DNA of 64,000 bases from Teretinema zuelzerae (GTDB lineage Bacteria > Spirochaetota > Spirochaetia > Treponematales > Treponemataceae), in contig NZ_JAINWA010000001.1 in the NCBI RefSeq assembly GCF_021021555.1, forward strand, positions 1,302,001-1,366,000. Direction: 5' to 3'. The notes under the pieces were generated by a model. That model was given only the letters and a program-made list of their open reading frames with translations, had not been told where the DNA came from and searched no databases. The translations under genes were made by a program, and so were the position numbers. Below are positions 34,301-41,285 of the stretch, in pieces (within the stretch, counting starts at the first letter, position 1; the number at the start of each line of letters is the position of its first letter).

Positions 34301-34543
34301 ACGACTCTCACCACCGTGCTCGGACTCGTTCCGATGGCGTTCTTCCCCGGCGAAGGTTCCGAGATGGTACAGCCGATCGGACAAACCGTCCTCGGAGGGC
34401 TCTCCTTCGGAACCCTGATGACGCTCTTCCTCATGCCGGTGCTCTATTACGGATTCAACCGGATACGCGAAAAAAGGGAGCTGAAAAAGGCCGCACGGCT
34501 GGAACGGAAGCTGGCTCTCGCCGCTGAAAAAGGAGGGCTTTAA
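31340..34543 (+). CDS. RND-family multidrug efflux permease
   Basis: A 1067-residue inner-membrane RND pump (AcrB/HAE1-like) with two repeats of a membrane helix, a large periplasmic loop and five to six helices. GVGMLVDNSIVILENIYTY in helix 4 has the proton-relay aspartate D413 but Asn (N414) where AcrB has a second Asp. ILVGIIVNNGIVLVDYTNLLRKRG in helix 10 has the same layout as in other VDN-type pumps. A glycine-rich segment, VGGGGGMQLGGGSS, marks the second periplasmic loop. It should export drugs, detergents or lipids using the proton gradient. It is coupled by ATGA to the adaptor upstream, and its stop codon overlaps the next ATG. Confidence 0.94.
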   Translation: MSLSKTVVSRPTTVMIIFTVLAALGIYATMDLPLDLLPDMELPYVAISTTYTGAGPEEVEKRVTRPLESVISSVSGIEYLGSQSSSGSSLIYIQFVFGTNMDEAMNDIRASLDYVKNLLPDDASTPMIFKMDPNMIPIMNYAISGNRSPEELREYAEDLTPKLEQIEGVATANVFGGRERAILVEIPRDRLQAYNLTVTQISQLIGAQNIQVAGGTITEEDYNYTISTVGEYRSIEDVKNTVISYKMAGTTYGAMGVTNPGTMTTVRLRDIANVYEGYKPQTSSFYMNGVPATQLSIQKQSGKNSVQTARVVREKMEEIRKTAPSDITITLTNDTTEIIQRSVDQVASSAIQGALFAIIVLFIFLRSVRSTVIIGLTIPISLIITLGIMFFTGMTLNIMTLAGLALGVGMLVDNSIVILENIYTYRDKGAKAFAAAVLGSQEMMMAIAASTLTTICVFLPLIMYQKELGIIGEVFKGLSFTVVISLLCSLVVAVVLVPVLSSKYFKIGSKKERNLPGVFGAADRRLGIAFDALDQGYYNSIRWVLKHKLITLCTIAGLLILSIVMIPRLGFVFMPTSVADSVKIDVTLPVGTKLETTEAVLRQLEQTVYREVKGYKHVTLLAGSSGMMGFGNTSSYSGSLTVTLPPLSERIDSEDEIKAKLRSHFGDYPGATFTVGGGGGMQLGGGSSAVAISVKSEDLDKARDTANAIKTLLETEAADMVTDPNISMKDGLPQVNIVIDRERMYGLGLNVYTVGQEIKANIAGTTASRFRQDGEEIDIVLMLAEEDKTRLSDLEQIFVTNASGQRIPVSSFARYQEGVSPISITRENQSRLITVNAGSVPGKSITDIQKRVESLVQEKIPQDPAVRIEYGGDFEDLMKAIKQFVVIIIMAIVLVFAVMASQFESLLDPFIVLFTMPLVVVGIVAIYAITGLPLNVMTAVGVLILVGIIVNNGIVLVDYTNLLRKRGLALADACAQAARSRLRPILMTTLTTVLGLVPMAFFPGEGSEMVQPIGQTVLGGLSFGTLMTLFLMPVLYYGFNRIREKRELKKAARLERKLALAAEKGGL

Positions 34544-34818
34544 TGAAGAGAATCGAAATTATTTTCAGCCAATCGCTCGAGGAAGACGTCTTCGCCTCGC
34601 TGGCGCATATACCGGAAGCCGCGCGCTTCTCGATCATACCGGGGGTCCGCGGCAAGGGCTACTCTGTCCCTAAAATGGGAGACGCCGTATGGCCGGGAGA
34701 AAACACCATGATGATAATCTGGTGCGAATCAGACGCGGCGGCGGCCGAAATTGAAAAAGCGGTCGTTTCCGTACGGGAAAAATATCCCGACGAAGGCGTC
34801 GCCTGTTTTATGATGTAG
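34543..34818 (+). CDS. Small PII-like/ferredoxin-fold protein in the efflux operon
   Basis: A 91-residue cytoplasmic protein of unknown function. The predicted beta-alpha-beta-beta-alpha-beta order (KRIEIIFSQSLEEDVFASL, ENTMMIIWCES, AAEIEKAVVSVREKYPDEGVACFMM) and the central PGVRGKGYS loop resemble PII-like/DUF3240-type proteins. It has no signal peptide. Its ATG overlaps the RND pump stop, so it belongs to the efflux operon as its last gene. A role in sensing or tuning the pump would fit its fold and place but is an inference. It ends 11 bp inside the convergent flavoprotein gene. Confidence 0.7.
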   Translation: MKRIEIIFSQSLEEDVFASLAHIPEAARFSIIPGVRGKGYSVPKMGDAVWPGENTMMIIWCESDAAAAEIEKAVVSVREKYPDEGVACFMM

Positions 34819-36082
34819 CGGATGCAAGGATTCGAGCCGCGCTCTCCGCGGCAAGAACCCCCGAAGAAAAGGCGAACTGGAGGTTGAAGCCTCCCGTATC
34901 GCCGTCCACATCCAAAACCTCTCCCGCGAAATGGAGTCCCGGAACGATTCGGGACTCCATTGTTTTCGGATTCGCCTCCGAAACATCCACCCCGCCGGCA
35001 GTCGCCATCGCGACGGAAAAATCGCCGATTCTTTCTATTGTAAACGAGAATTCCGCAAGAACCGAAGCGATCGCCTTCCGTTCGGCTTTGGAGAGAACCG
35101 CCCCGGTACGGGACGGATCTGCGCCGGCGCGGGAAAAGACGACCTTGACGAGGGCTTCGCTGAGGGCAAGTCCGGAGGAAACGGCGTTGGCGAAGGTGCG
35201 TTTGGGGAAGCGCGCGCACAGATCGGCGAGAAGCGAGTCCATGCAGCGAGGTCCCGATTCTCCCTGCGGACGATCATGCGCGGAAAGGCTCCCCAGATCG
35301 AGGCGGATTTCGTCGCCGGGGGCGAAATCGCGGGAAAAATCCAGTATCAACGGGCCTGAAAGGCCGTCATGGGTAAAAAGCGCGTCGCCCCTGCGCTCTC
35401 CCGCCTTCCGCCCGTTTTTCCACAGGCTCGCGTGAACGCCTTCCAGGGCGTAGCCGGCGCAGGAGGCGCAGTCGTAGCGAGCGGGGAAAACCGGGGCGAG
35501 CGCCGGCCGGGGAGGGACGATGGAATGGCCCAGCGCGGCGGCGAGGGCGAAGCCGTCGCCGGTCGAACCGGTGACCGGCCAGGAGGAGCCTCCGGTCGTG
35601 ATCGCCACGCAGGAGGCGCCGTACTCGGCCTTGTCTGTCGAGACGATGAAGCCCCCGGGCGCCCGGACTATCGAAACGACCCGCTCCGAGAGGGCGATTT
35701 CCGCGTTCTCCGCTGAACAGGCGGAAAGAAGAACCCGCAGAACGTCGGACGATTTGCCGGACCGGGGGAACATTTTGCCGCCGTTGAGCTTCTCGAGAGG
35801 CAGACCGCGGGATTCGAAGAATTCGCGGAGATCGGACGGCGGAAAATTCTGCAAGCACGGGCGTACGAAGCGGCCGCTGTCGCCGTAGGAGCGGAAAAAG
35901 GTTTCAAGAGGAGCGGAATTAGTCAGATTGCAACGGCCCGAGCCGGCTACCAGCAGTTTTTTCCCCGGCTTGCTGTTTTTCTCGAGGACCAGCACCCGGG
36001 AACGCGAAAGCGAGGCGGCCTTCCAGGCGCACATCAATCCGGCGGGCCCGGCTCCGATTACGACGAGATCGACGCTTTTCAT
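34808..36082 (-). CDS. HI0933-family FAD/NAD(P)-dependent oxidoreductase
   Basis: A 424-residue flavoprotein of the HI0933/YhiN (BaiN-like) family. The N-terminal Rossmann motif VVIGAGPAGLMCAW binds FAD, followed by KPGKKLLVAGSGRCNLTN, the family signature. A second FAD contact near the C terminus reads LHFAGEVLDVDGDTGGFNLQFAFSSG. The reaction in this organism is unknown; family members include enzymes reducing steroid or other unsaturated substrates. The ATG at 36082 overlaps the Nudix stop by four bases. A much longer upstream extension in the same frame runs through the Nudix gene and is not credible. The 3' end overlaps the convergent PII-like gene by 11 bp. Confidence 0.9.
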   Translation of the reverse strand: MKSVDLVVIGAGPAGLMCAWKAASLSRSRVLVLEKNSKPGKKLLVAGSGRCNLTNSAPLETFFRSYGDSGRFVRPCLQNFPPSDLREFFESRGLPLEKLNGGKMFPRSGKSSDVLRVLLSACSAENAEIALSERVVSIVRAPGGFIVSTDKAEYGASCVAITTGGSSWPVTGSTGDGFALAAALGHSIVPPRPALAPVFPARYDCASCAGYALEGVHASLWKNGRKAGERRGDALFTHDGLSGPLILDFSRDFAPGDEIRLDLGSLSAHDRPQGESGPRCMDSLLADLCARFPKRTFANAVSSGLALSEALVKVVFSRAGADPSRTGAVLSKAERKAIASVLAEFSFTIERIGDFSVAMATAGGVDVSEANPKTMESRIVPGLHFAGEVLDVDGDTGGFNLQFAFSSGVLAAESAARILASATS

Positions 36083-36597
36083 CTGCGGGAACGCCACGCG
36101 AGCAGAGCCTGCCGATGGGACTCGAAGGCTATGGGCGCGTCTTCTATAGCGCCGACGGGCACCAAACGATAGCCTGAAACCTCGGACTCGTCCAATGAAA
36201 GCCCCTCGGCCGAAACTGCGGTGGAAGCGGAAAAATAGAGATCGCAGGTATGGTAGAGCACGTTCCGGTATATATATTCGTTCGGCCATGAACCGACGAA
36301 GGACGAAATCGAGACGGAGAGGCCGGTTTCTTCCAAACATTCCCGCACGGCGGCATCTTCCGCCCGTTCGCGCGAATCGACGAAGCCGCCGGGCAGGGCC
36401 AACAGGCCGATCCCCGGCTCGCGGTTTCTCACCAGCATGAGCACGGAGTCGCCGAAGGGCAGAATAACGCTGGCGGACGCGGCTACGTTGTGATAATAGG
36501 TAAAAAGACACACCGGACAATACCAGTATTTATTATCCCTATATTGATAGCCTATCGATCCGCATCGGGGACAAAATTTCAAAGAAGCAGGTTTCAT
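36079..36597 (-). CDS. Nudix hydrolase with an N-terminal zinc ribbon
   Basis: A 172-residue Nudix protein. A zinc ribbon (C9, C12, C27, C30) is followed by a complete Nudix box: G71, E77, R85, E86, E89, E90, G92. It should hydrolyse a nucleoside diphosphate linked to another moiety. The N-terminal ribbon is shared with NudC-type NADH pyrophosphatases and related ADP-sugar enzymes, but the overall length is short for NudC, so the substrate is open. The ATG at 36597 is preferred to an earlier in-frame start inside the ECF gene. It follows the ECF stop by seven bases and is coupled to the flavoprotein gene. Confidence 0.88.
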   Translation of the reverse strand: MKPASLKFCPRCGSIGYQYRDNKYWYCPVCLFTYYHNVAASASVILPFGDSVLMLVRNREPGIGLLALPGGFVDSRERAEDAAVRECLEETGLSVSISSFVGSWPNEYIYRNVLYHTCDLYFSASTAVSAEGLSLDESEVSGYRLVPVGAIEDAPIAFESHRQALLAWRSRR

Positions 36598-36604
36598 CGT
36601 ATCT

Positions 36605-38734
36605 CTACATCCTGACGAAAGTAGACAGCCATACCAGGATAATCGCAAGTACAGGAGCCATTACATTGAGTATAAGAGCGCGGACGTCTCTTTTCCAGAG
36701 AAGGTACCGCGAATTTTTTCCGGTCCCGAATCCGCGCGCCTCGATTGCTTGGGCGAGCCGGTCAGCCCGGACGAGGGTTCGGAGAACAAGGGGGACGAAG
36801 AGCGATGCGACCGAGGCGATTTTACCGGAAATTCCGCTTTTTTTTCGGTCTCCGCCCCGCATTTTCCGCGCCAGAACGATTCTGTCGGACTCGTCCTTCA
36901 GGATGACGACAAAGCGGAACACGACGGCTACGAGCAGGGATGCGCTTCTCGCCGGAACTCCCAGAAAGGAAAGCGGCTTCAGAAGGTCCTCCATGCCGTA
37001 CATGATCTCCGTATGCGAGCATAGATGCATGAACACGCTCAATGGAATGTACAGGGTGATGAAGCGGAGCAAAAACATCGCCGAATGATAGACATTCGGC
37101 TGAAGCAAAAACTGCAGGGCGACGATCAGGGCGAGCCAGGGAAGAATCCGCGCGATGCCGAGAATCAGCTTTTTCAGCGGATATCGGGAGGCTCTCAGCG
37201 GGATAAACTCAAGAAAAAGCAGAGCGGCTAAAAAAAGCGGTCCCTGGATGAATACGGCCGCGAACACCTGGGACAGGGTAAGCAGGTAGCGGGTCAGGGG
37301 GCTTGTCCGGCAAAGCGCGCTCTTGGAGCCGGCCGGGTCCGCGGTGCGAGGCGGAGGATCGGGAAGTGCGATCGTCTGGTCCGCCCAGGCGCATTCCTCT
37401 CTCCTGTTCGTGGTGAACGCGACCGCCTTTCCCTCGGCGCGTAGCGACCCGATCAGGGAAAAAAGCTGGGCGCGGCTCCGCACGTCCAGGGCCGAGGACG
37501 GCTCGTCCAGAAGCACGATATCGCTGTCCATCGCGACGATGCCGGCAAGCGCCGCCTTTCTTCGCTCTCCCCCGGAGAGCGAAAAGGTGTGGCGCTCGGC
37601 GAAGCGGTCGAAGGGGAGGCCGCAGAGGTCCATCGCGCGGCGCACCCGGGAAACGAGTTCCTTCCCCGAGACGCCCGAGTTGCGCGGACCGAAGGCGACG
37701 TCGTCCGCGGCGAATTCTGCGAAGAGGCTCGCCTCGCTTTCCTGAACCGCCAGCGCCGCCCGGCATCCGGGAGCGAGTGTTCTCGAGCCCTCCGCGGGTT
37801 CGGCAAGGCCGGCAAGCACGGACAGGAGCAGGGATTTGCCTGACCCCGATTCGCCGGTAACGGCGGTGACCGTCCCGGGATAGAGGTCGAGCGAGATGCC
37901 GGACAGGGGACCGAGAGACAGATGCGCGCAGGAAAGAAGCGGTGACGGAGCGGCGGCGGTTTCCGGCGCGGCAGAAAGCGCAGGGGAGAGAGCAGGAGAG
38001 GCGGGAGCAGGAACCTCCGGGACGGCCGCCTGAGGGACGGCGGGAGAGGCAAGGCCCCAGGCTTCGAGCGAGGATCGGGGGATAGCCGCGAAAGCGCTTG
38101 ACGGTCCGTCGAAAACTGTCCGCCCGTCATCCAAAATCAATATCCGTTCCGCCCGGGCGGCTTCTTCAAGATCGTGGGTGATGTGCATGATCGAACCGCC
38201 TTCGCCGTGGAAGCGGTCGAGAAAGGATAGCAGTGAGGCGCGGGCGGCGGGGCTCAGCATGGAAGTCGGTTCGTCGAGAAGGAGGAGGGCCGGATCGAGA
38301 ACCATGGCGCCGGCAAGGGCCGCATGCTGCTTGAGGCCGCAGGACAGCTCCCCCACTGGAAGATCGGCGACTGTATCGAGAGCGAATAGCGAAAGCGCTC
38401 CCCGAACCCGGCGAACCATCTCGGACTGATCCGTTCCGAGGTTCTCCAGGCCGAACGCCGCGTCGAGCTCGGCGGTTTCTCCGACAAGCTGGTCGGCGGG
38501 CGACTGAAACACGAGAGCGCAGGGAACCTTTCCTGCGGGAGCGTCGAAAACCGCGGAGCCGACCGAAGGCTTCAGCAAACCCGCGATGCATCTGGCAAGG
38601 GTGCTTTTGCCCGAACCGTTAGATCCCAGAACCGCGAGATATTCGCCGGAATCGAGGGAGAACGAGGCGTTTTGTACCGCCGCGGAAGGGGCTTCAGGGT
38701 AGGAATAGGAAAGATCGGTTACGCGAAGGAGCAT
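36605..38734 (-). CDS. ECF transporter: fused A-A'-T protein
   Basis: A 709-residue protein carrying two ABC ATPase domains and the EcfT membrane subunit in one chain. Domain 1 (about 1-230) has Walker A GSNGSGKST (37-45), H187 in the switch and a degenerate signature SCGLKQ (131-136). A Pro/Ala-rich linker (231-265) follows. Domain 2 (266-460) has Walker A GESGSGKS, the canonical signature LSGGE and Walker B VLLDEPSSAL, but Asn443 where the switch His is expected (TTNRREE). EcfT (about 480-709) has five or six membrane segments and the coupling motif EARGFG. It needs a substrate-binding S component, and the S gene at 40677-41285 is the nearest candidate. The start context is weak (AGG). Confidence 0.9.
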   Translation of the reverse strand: MLLRVTDLSYSYPEAPSAAVQNASFSLDSGEYLAVLGSNGSGKSTLARCIAGLLKPSVGSAVFDAPAGKVPCALVFQSPADQLVGETAELDAAFGLENLGTDQSEMVRRVRGALSLFALDTVADLPVGELSCGLKQHAALAGAMVLDPALLLLDEPTSMLSPAARASLLSFLDRFHGEGGSIMHITHDLEEAARAERILILDDGRTVFDGPSSAFAAIPRSSLEAWGLASPAVPQAAVPEVPAPASPALSPALSAAPETAAAPSPLLSCAHLSLGPLSGISLDLYPGTVTAVTGESGSGKSLLLSVLAGLAEPAEGSRTLAPGCRAALAVQESEASLFAEFAADDVAFGPRNSGVSGKELVSRVRRAMDLCGLPFDRFAERHTFSLSGGERRKAALAGIVAMDSDIVLLDEPSSALDVRSRAQLFSLIGSLRAEGKAVAFTTNRREECAWADQTIALPDPPPRTADPAGSKSALCRTSPLTRYLLTLSQVFAAVFIQGPLFLAALLFLEFIPLRASRYPLKKLILGIARILPWLALIVALQFLLQPNVYHSAMFLLRFITLYIPLSVFMHLCSHTEIMYGMEDLLKPLSFLGVPARSASLLVAVVFRFVVILKDESDRIVLARKMRGGDRKKSGISGKIASVASLFVPLVLRTLVRADRLAQAIEARGFGTGKNSRYLLWKRDVRALILNVMAPVLAIILVWLSTFVRM

Positions 38735-40643: not shown

Positions 40644-40676
40644 AGCCCCAACTTAGCTCTTTTGGAGGCTCCTGTC

Positions 40677-41285
40677 ATGAACAACACACCAAACACCCGA
40701 ATCAGAAAGCTCGTCGTCACCGGCGCTCTCGGCGCTCTGGCGGTTTTTCTCGGAATCACCCGTCTCGGACTCATCCCCTGGATTTCAGGAGCTTCCATAA
40801 CCGTCATGCATATTCCCGCCATCATCGGCGCGATCCTGGAAGGCCCGCTGGTCGGCTGCGGAATCGGCGCGATTTTCGGCGTATTCAGCCTGTATCAGGC
40901 CAACATCAGCCCGGTGGCCTTCGACGCCTTCTTCAGAAACCCGCTCGTTTCCGTGCTTCCGCGCATTCTCTTTCCCCTCGCCGCCTGGGGCATCTGGTGG
41001 GCAGTGTCCCGCTGGAAGAAAATCCCGGCGGTGATCGCGGCCGGCCTCGGCGGTAGCATCATCCACACCGTTCTCGTGCTCGGCATGCTCGTCGCGACCA
41101 ACGGTTCGAGCGTACTGACCGGGGGCGCGGAGGGCGTGACTCTCTGGGCCGTAGTGGGTATGATATTCGTCGCGAACGGTCTGCCTGAAGCCGCCGCCGC
41201 CGCGATACTTTCGACCCTCGTCGTAGCCGCCTGGCTCGGACTCAACACCCGCCGCAAGAAATCGAAATTGTCGGAGGAAGAATGA
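40677..41285 (+). CDS. ECF transporter substrate-binding (S) component, likely NAD-precursor related
   Basis: A 202-residue membrane protein with about six membrane segments. RKLVVTGALGALAVFLGITRLGLIPWISGAS and the loop HIPAIIGAILEGPLVGCGIGAIFGV are typical of ECF S components (ThiW/PanT/NiaX-like fold). The ATG at 40677 has GGAGG eight bases upstream; a TTG at 40662 would precede that site. It is the first gene of an operon with nadC, nadA and nadB (four-base overlap with nadC), so niacin or another pyridine is the likely cargo, by context only. It would pair with the fused A-A'-T protein 2 kb upstream. Confidence 0.82.
   Translation: MNNTPNTRIRKLVVTGALGALAVFLGITRLGLIPWISGASITVMHIPAIIGAILEGPLVGCGIGAIFGVFSLYQANISPVAFDAFFRNPLVSVLPRILFPLAAWGIWWAVSRWKKIPAVIAAGLGGSIIHTVLVLGMLVATNGSSVLTGGAEGVTLWAVVGMIFVANGLPEAAAAAILSTLVVAAWLGLNTRRKKSKLSEEE

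Follow-up and report, generated by a model that had tools for sequence, protein, structure and literature searches.

A one-chain ECF transporter module with one canonical and one degenerate ATP site in a clade of spirochaetes

The window analysed here is a stretch of 64,000 nucleotides from Teretinema zuelzerae (contig NZ_JAINWA010000001.1, positions 1,302,001 to 1,366,000), and its minus strand carries a gene at 36605..38734 (stop codon included) that encodes a single protein of 709 residues. An earlier note, made from the sequence alone, had described this frame as a one-chain fusion of both ECF ATPases and EcfT without stating the strand, and the open frame and its Pfam matches bear out the description: two ABC_tran domains and one CbiQ/EcfT domain were detected, the latter scoring 66.2 bits against a cut-off of 25. 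The first nucleotide-binding domain (NBD1; residues 1-232; 38039..38734, minus) is EcfA1-like, its best solved relative being 9kym_A, which is named EcfA1; 4huq_B scores equally and carries both EcfA names. The second (NBD2; residues 267-461; 37352..37936, minus) is labelled EcfA2-like, with EcfA2 chains scoring slightly above EcfA1 chains among those named EcfA and with residues 313-458 forming the best stretch of the match to the EcfA2 chain 5d3m_B. Because OppD-like chains (8j5q_D and 8j5s_D) match NBD2 best when it is searched alone, together with TM_0222 and with EcfA chains also among the top matches, this label leans on gene order as well. The remaining residues, 472-709 (36608..37321, minus), form the EcfT domain, as delimited by the CbiQ match and by an alignment with the EcfT chain 4hzu_T (E 5.4e-16). 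Two arginines, R626 and R667, do not vary among the nine rows of alignment A1, and we take them for the X-Arg-X arginines of EcfT. Among the NCBIfam models, those for EcfA stayed under their cut-offs for the fusion (300.7 vs 315 and 275.8 vs 330) and the cbiO model TIGR01166 scored above its own (238 vs 211.8). The locus holds the parts by which an ECF module is recognized: two ABC ATPases of the EcfA kind, an EcfT/CbiQ domain and, nearby, an S component.

Downstream of the fusion lies a NUDIX frame (36079..36648, minus), a mechanically called frame that overlaps the end of the fusion gene. The divergent gene at 40662..41285 (plus) encodes an ECF S component (PF12822; 64.5 bits against a cut-off of 30.7) and is the likely partner of the fusion. 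All five loci examined from the window's own clade (L042, L043, L044, L045 and L048) have a PF12822 gene close to the fusion, a set that leaves aside L046, L049 and the loci with short flanks. The window's S component resembles 6zg3_C (8.9e-9), whose entry is titled ECF PanT, and 4rfs_S (2.2e-11), which we take to be PanT as well; for the S components of five relatives, NCBIfam returned no name.

Between 38932 and 44689 the window holds, in series, a 5'-nucleotidase, the ECF S component and nadC-nadA-nadB, of which nadB was identified by search and the two genes before it, next to the S component, are presumably nadC and nadA. This row of genes hints at NAD-related salvage and uptake. In two relatives a gene for a pyridoxine/hydroxymethylpyrimidine kinase stands directly ahead of the fusion (L042, 5182-5991; L045, 5163-5987), and in L044 the gene ahead of the fusion was judged from its similar first residues to encode the same kinase; in the window, the kinase gene does not adjoin the fusion. 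A 91-residue frame at 34543-34818 of the window has a homologue beside the fusion in all five loci examined from the clade, and the large frame that adjoins it presumably encodes an RND-type transporter, judging by its look.

In its parts the module is like the group II ECF transporters of L. delbrueckii (ECF-FolT2, ECF-CbrT and ECF-PanT), with EcfA1- and EcfA2-like ATPases, an EcfT bearing two conserved arginines and a PF12822 S component nearby. Unlike these transporters, it has its three module subunits in one chain.

In a head-to-tail ABC dimer, the Walker A motif of each NBD faces the signature motif of the other. We defined site 1 as the Walker A, Walker B and H187 of NBD1 together with the signature (LSGGE) and D-loop of NBD2, and site 2 as the Walker A and Walker B of NBD2 together with the signature and D-loop of NBD1. 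Assigning a D-loop to the site that receives the signature of its domain is a convention adopted in this analysis; D-loop contacts vary among ABC proteins, according to passages of PMC7756269.

With these definitions the two sites of the window's protein differ sharply (all motifs on the minus strand). The motifs named in the earlier note were found where it had placed them. NBD1 retains its switch His in site 1 (H187; 38174..38176) and contributes to site 2 a broken signature, noted before as SCGLKQ (LSCGLKQ, residues 130-136; 38327..38347); NBD2 contributes to site 1 a perfect signature (LSGGERR, residues 386-392, with LSGGE at 386-390; 37559..37579) and carries Asn443 at the switch-His position of site 2 (37406..37408). 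The proposed pairings, of the first Walker A and H187 with LSGGE and of the second Walker A and N443 with the broken signature, fit a head-to-tail dimer, and NBD pairs arranged in this way align with the predicted model. Beyond what the note had seen, the D-loop of NBD1 reads SMLS (residues 158-161; 38252..38263), with Ser161 in place of the Asp, the Walker A of NBD2 reads GESGSGKSL (residues 294-302; 37829..37855), with Leu302 in place of the last Thr, and the A-loop region of NBD2 is shortened; these changes also fall in site 2. One canonical and one altered composite site, the pattern by which degenerate-site ABC proteins are recognized, are both present in the chain. The loss of the Walker B catalytic Glu from the degenerate site, which excerpts of PMC7544095 give as a hallmark of such proteins, is not found in the fusion, since E411 is present.

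Support for the head-to-tail pairing of NBD1 and NBD2 comes from established ABC architecture and from a predicted model. AlphaFold2, run on nine sequences, returned a model with a mean pLDDT of 76.2 and a pTM of 0.70, which is weak just ahead of signature 2 (residues 381-384 below 50 pLDDT). Residues 1-461 of this model align with solved NBD pairs from single chains, namely with ATP-bound DppD (8wdb_D; 424 residues, 2.9 A, Z 26.3) and with ATP-bound CFTR (8v7z; 383 residues, 2.8 A, Z 25.6). They also align with apo ABCB1 (8avy), and the model thus leaves unsettled whether it represents an open or a closed state.

Relatives of the fusion were collected from 195 genomes of the family (E <= 1e-60) and from 392 genomes of the phylum (E <= 1e-50), the own genome being counted in each, and from named records. 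Matches were obtained in at least 76 of the 195 family genomes, including 11 of the 12 genomes of the window's genus (code g1), and in 51 of the 392 phylum genomes; the looser threshold used in the phylum added six further genomes of the family. Identical proteins were merged into one row, and loci L117-L132, second copies of included genomes, were not used. The 84 own-family rows comprise 81 complete A-A'-T frames and three partial ones (L046, L049 and L067). The window's own clade (codes g1, g5, g18 and g20) comprises 18 rows, 15 complete and 3 partial, and includes Brucepastera parasyntrophica RmG11, a named strain with a complete genome (L045). L046 and L049 were assigned to it by similarity, outside the tree. 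L049 and L067 share a stretch and are probably the same gene, so that the 18 rows may represent 17 genes. A quick tree that did not use the trait columns groups the 15 own-clade rows in a single branch (SH-aLRT 99); it included about one third of the rows of code g3 and none of L046, L049, L067, L149 and the paralogues L152 and L153, and the placement of the long row L073 in it is unsure.

Across this clade, no readable row (15 to 18 rows for each position) deviates at any of the twelve motif positions of site 1. The switch His of site 2 is kept in none of the 18 rows (0/16 without L046 and L049); the position of N443 holds Asn in 12, Thr in 4, Ser in 1 and Gly in 1, a mixture that fits relaxed constraint, though Asn dominates. 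The first Gly of signature 1 is kept in 0/15 readable rows and the D-loop Asp of NBD1 in 0/16, while the Thr/Ser that follows the Mg-binding Ser/Thr in the Walker A of NBD2 survives in 2/16. Elsewhere in the site 2 signature the Gln/Glu is kept in 6, the Ser in 10 and the second Gly in 14 of 15 rows. The stretch ahead of the NBD2 Walker A has a median length of 29 residues (21-34) in the clade vs 33 (33-49) in its sisters. A text pattern for the A-loop aromatic residue was found in NBD2 of 5 of the 18 rows and not in the other 13, two of which (L046 and L049) are unreadable there; the pattern was also negative in NBD2 of 2/66 sister rows, 2/5 rows of family f3 and 2/8 rows of families f2, f4 and f18, and in 1/16 own-clade rows of NBD1. 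Because this pattern is crude, the main support for the A-loop claim is the shortened segment, the length ranges of which in the clade and in the sisters touch.

NBD1 has defects in its signature and D-loop, and NBD2 in its A-loop region, Walker A, Glu and switch His; all of them fall in site 2, as would be expected if one composite site had lost constraint and not if a domain were decaying. General decay of NBD2 is ruled out, since NBD2 is the best-conserved domain within the clade (mean pairwise identity 0.57, compared with 0.50 for NBD1 and 0.43 for EcfT; 15 rows). A strain-specific change or a sequencing error, the case that the earlier note had named as fatal to its reading, is ruled out by the clade-wide pattern: the signature Gly is absent from 80 of the 81 readable family rows and the switch His from all 18 own-clade rows. 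The contrast between one canonical site and one that combines both defects is stronger than the note had seen. That the gene is decaying, has been repurposed or reflects an artefact of sequencing or strain is barely credible: the loss of several conserved motifs and the partial relative L067, whose open frame matches only from query residue 138 onward, would speak for it, but 81 of 84 family frames are complete, site 1 is fully kept, NBD2 is so well conserved, R626 and R667 are invariant in A1, and all five loci examined have a PF12822 gene close by.

Other positions of site 2 have stayed intact in the clade. The Walker A Lys and the Mg-binding Ser/Thr are kept in 16/16 rows each, the Walker B Asp in 18/18 and the Q-loop Gln in 17/17; the catalytic Glu is kept in 16/18, with Asp in L014 and Asn in L073. 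These residues bear on two alternatives to a one-sided motor that holds ATP at site 2. One is that both sites hydrolyse ATP, Asn443 and the altered signature being tolerated and site 2 perhaps slower. The retained Glu, Lys, Asp and Gln favour it, and so does ABCC1, where, in the part of PMC7756269 that deals with it, transport was retained although one site had Asn at the switch-His position. We consider this alternative unlikely, because the switch-His position also accepts Thr, Ser and Gly, the D-loop Asp is gone from 16/16 rows and the signature Ser from 5/15, and two rows have lost the Glu itself. The other alternative, that site 2 is an empty structural site without ATP and the module uses a single ATP overall, would suit the shortened segment ahead of the NBD2 Walker A and the near-absence of its Thr/Ser; it is the more improbable of the two, given that the Lys and Mg-binding residue of Walker A, the Walker B Asp and the Q-loop Gln are kept in all rows readable there and that the degenerate site of BmrCD holds ATP, according to a passage of PMC7828314.

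The sister clade (66 rows) and family f3 (5 rows) have the same one-chain A-A'-T architecture as the window's fusion. In f3 both sites are canonical (5/5). In the sister clade the losses at site 2 are limited to the first signature Gly of NBD1, which is kept in just one row (L096), and His occupies the position of N443 in 66/66 rows. The earlier note had asked whether the signature and switch-His changes occur together; they do in the window's own clade, whereas in the sister clade the Gly is lost in 65/66 rows and the His in none. With only the signature Gly gone in the sisters, the changes arose in stages, and with the switch His kept in all sister rows, the signature change is the older. 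The changes of the switch His, the D-loop Asp and the A-loop are later and lie on the branch that leads to the window's clade. All three map to this one branch and so are not independent losses.

In families f2, f4 and f18 (8 rows), the two ATPases are fused (A-A'), with a separate EcfT frame in seven rows and none in the truncated L149. Their NBD1 signature reads LSAGQQQ in 8/8, and the other motifs are intact in readable rows except in L139 (f18), which combines LSAGQQQ with a missing D-loop Asp; a milder form of the degeneration may therefore exist elsewhere. LSAGQQQ is also found in the first ATPase of a Chloroflexota A-A' fusion (L190), and a search of 251 genomes from the phylum of an Anaerolineae record gave one A-A' fusion. 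The 299 genomes searched from the phylum of an Oscillospiraceae record yielded no full-length relatives at E 1e-62, in a search run without a positive control. ECF-like ATPases of other bacteria carry LSTGMQR (L155), LSQGQKR (L159) and LSLGQKK (L183). We rejected a changed signature as the sole mark of a weak site, since the ATPases with LSAGQQQ, LSLGQKK, LSTGMQR or LSQGQKR otherwise look intact; a third signature residue other than Gly, seen elsewhere with the remaining motifs in place, is weak evidence when taken alone.

EcfA1/EcfA2 pairs served as controls. They came from 61 genomes of the phylum of the Oscillospiraceae record and were the top NBD1 matches, not a random draw. Thirty loci gave 29 pairs, L183 yielding one domain only and standing outside the pair count, as do L154-L159, L190 and the rows of f2, f4 and f18. 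Both sites are canonical in all 29 pairs except L165 (Q-loop Gln) and L181 (D-loop Asp). The window's own genome holds a second ECF module (L152, C1:1094000-1102000), made of an EcfA and an EcfA-EcfT fusion, with LSGG and the switch His in both ATPases. A PF12822 match lies beside this module. Searches with the two Pfam families PF12822 and CbiQ located two places for the former and three for the latter in the genome.

Degenerate ATP sites are a well-known feature of exporters and channels. Like TM287/288, BmrCD, TAP, the ABCC family and CFTR, the fusion has one canonical and one degenerate site per NBD pair; these relatives in kind are exporters or channels, whereas the fusion is an ECF importer module. 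Among the papers listed by searches of the open-licence texts of PubMed Central, none dealt with an ECF transporter that has a degenerate site. PMC7828314 mentions both ECF and 'degenerate', and its passage on degeneracy concerns BmrCD. What we rate as new is an ECF module whose site degeneration is clade-wide and one-sided; degenerate sites as such were already known from exporters and channels.

We consider it probable that the protein is a one-chain motor of a vitamin or cofactor ECF transporter, in which site 1 hydrolyses ATP and site 2 holds ATP or hydrolyses it slowly. According to passages of PMC10368641, the L. delbrueckii motor expels its S component on ATP-driven closure of the dimer and is reset by hydrolysis. 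In the fusion, site 2 would bind ATP as a glue for dimer closure, with slow hydrolysis or none; the S component would be expelled when ATP closes the dimer; and site 1, by hydrolysing its ATP, would on its own reopen the dimer and so reset the motor. We infer that ATP is retained at site 2 and that one hydrolysis takes place per cycle, with closure still needing ATP at site 2, or at least its shape. Because the catalytic Glu is so widely kept, the inactivity of site 2 is likewise something that we infer and do not observe; slow hydrolysis there is possible, since the Glu, the Walker A Lys and the Q-loop are retained and Asn at the switch-His position is tolerated in ABCC1. With the presence of E411 and this tolerance (PMC7756269, in the part cited above) as reservations, the interpretation offered in the earlier note is supported overall.

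Glu-to-Gln replacement in either ATPase of L. delbrueckii caused severe growth defects, and the purified Glu-to-Gln motors showed neither ATPase activity nor transport (PMC10368641); E169 of EcfA falls on the catalytic Glu of EcfA1, by residue count in the alignment. Unlike this system, in which the Glu of each ATPase is needed, the fusion has one degenerate composite site, and with both L. delbrueckii Glu residues needed, operation on one site would need compensation. In a structure obtained under turnover, EcfA of L. delbrueckii held ATP and EcfA' held ADP (PMC10368641, in the part describing it). As a tentative proposal, in which we place less than even trust, the spirochaete ECF motor would perform one hydrolysis per cycle, and its silent site would be the one whose Walker A belongs to the EcfA2-like half; in the L. 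delbrueckii structure the corresponding half contains ADP, having already fired.

PMC10368641, in the portion cited, describes the sequence in which ECF motors bind and hydrolyse ATP at their two sites as not yet established, and excerpts of PMC12075633 report futile ATP turnover in ECF transporters. With f3 canonical, the sister clade half-changed and the window's clade one-sided, the fusions offer natural variants, alongside point mutants, for testing the role of each site, and the one-sided fusion is a natural test of whether ECF importers must burn ATP at both. If one hydrolysis per cycle is indeed what drives the spirochaete motor, ECF motors would have two sites whose functions can be separated, and the motor that evolved in spirochaetes would be a cheaper one or one with different timing.
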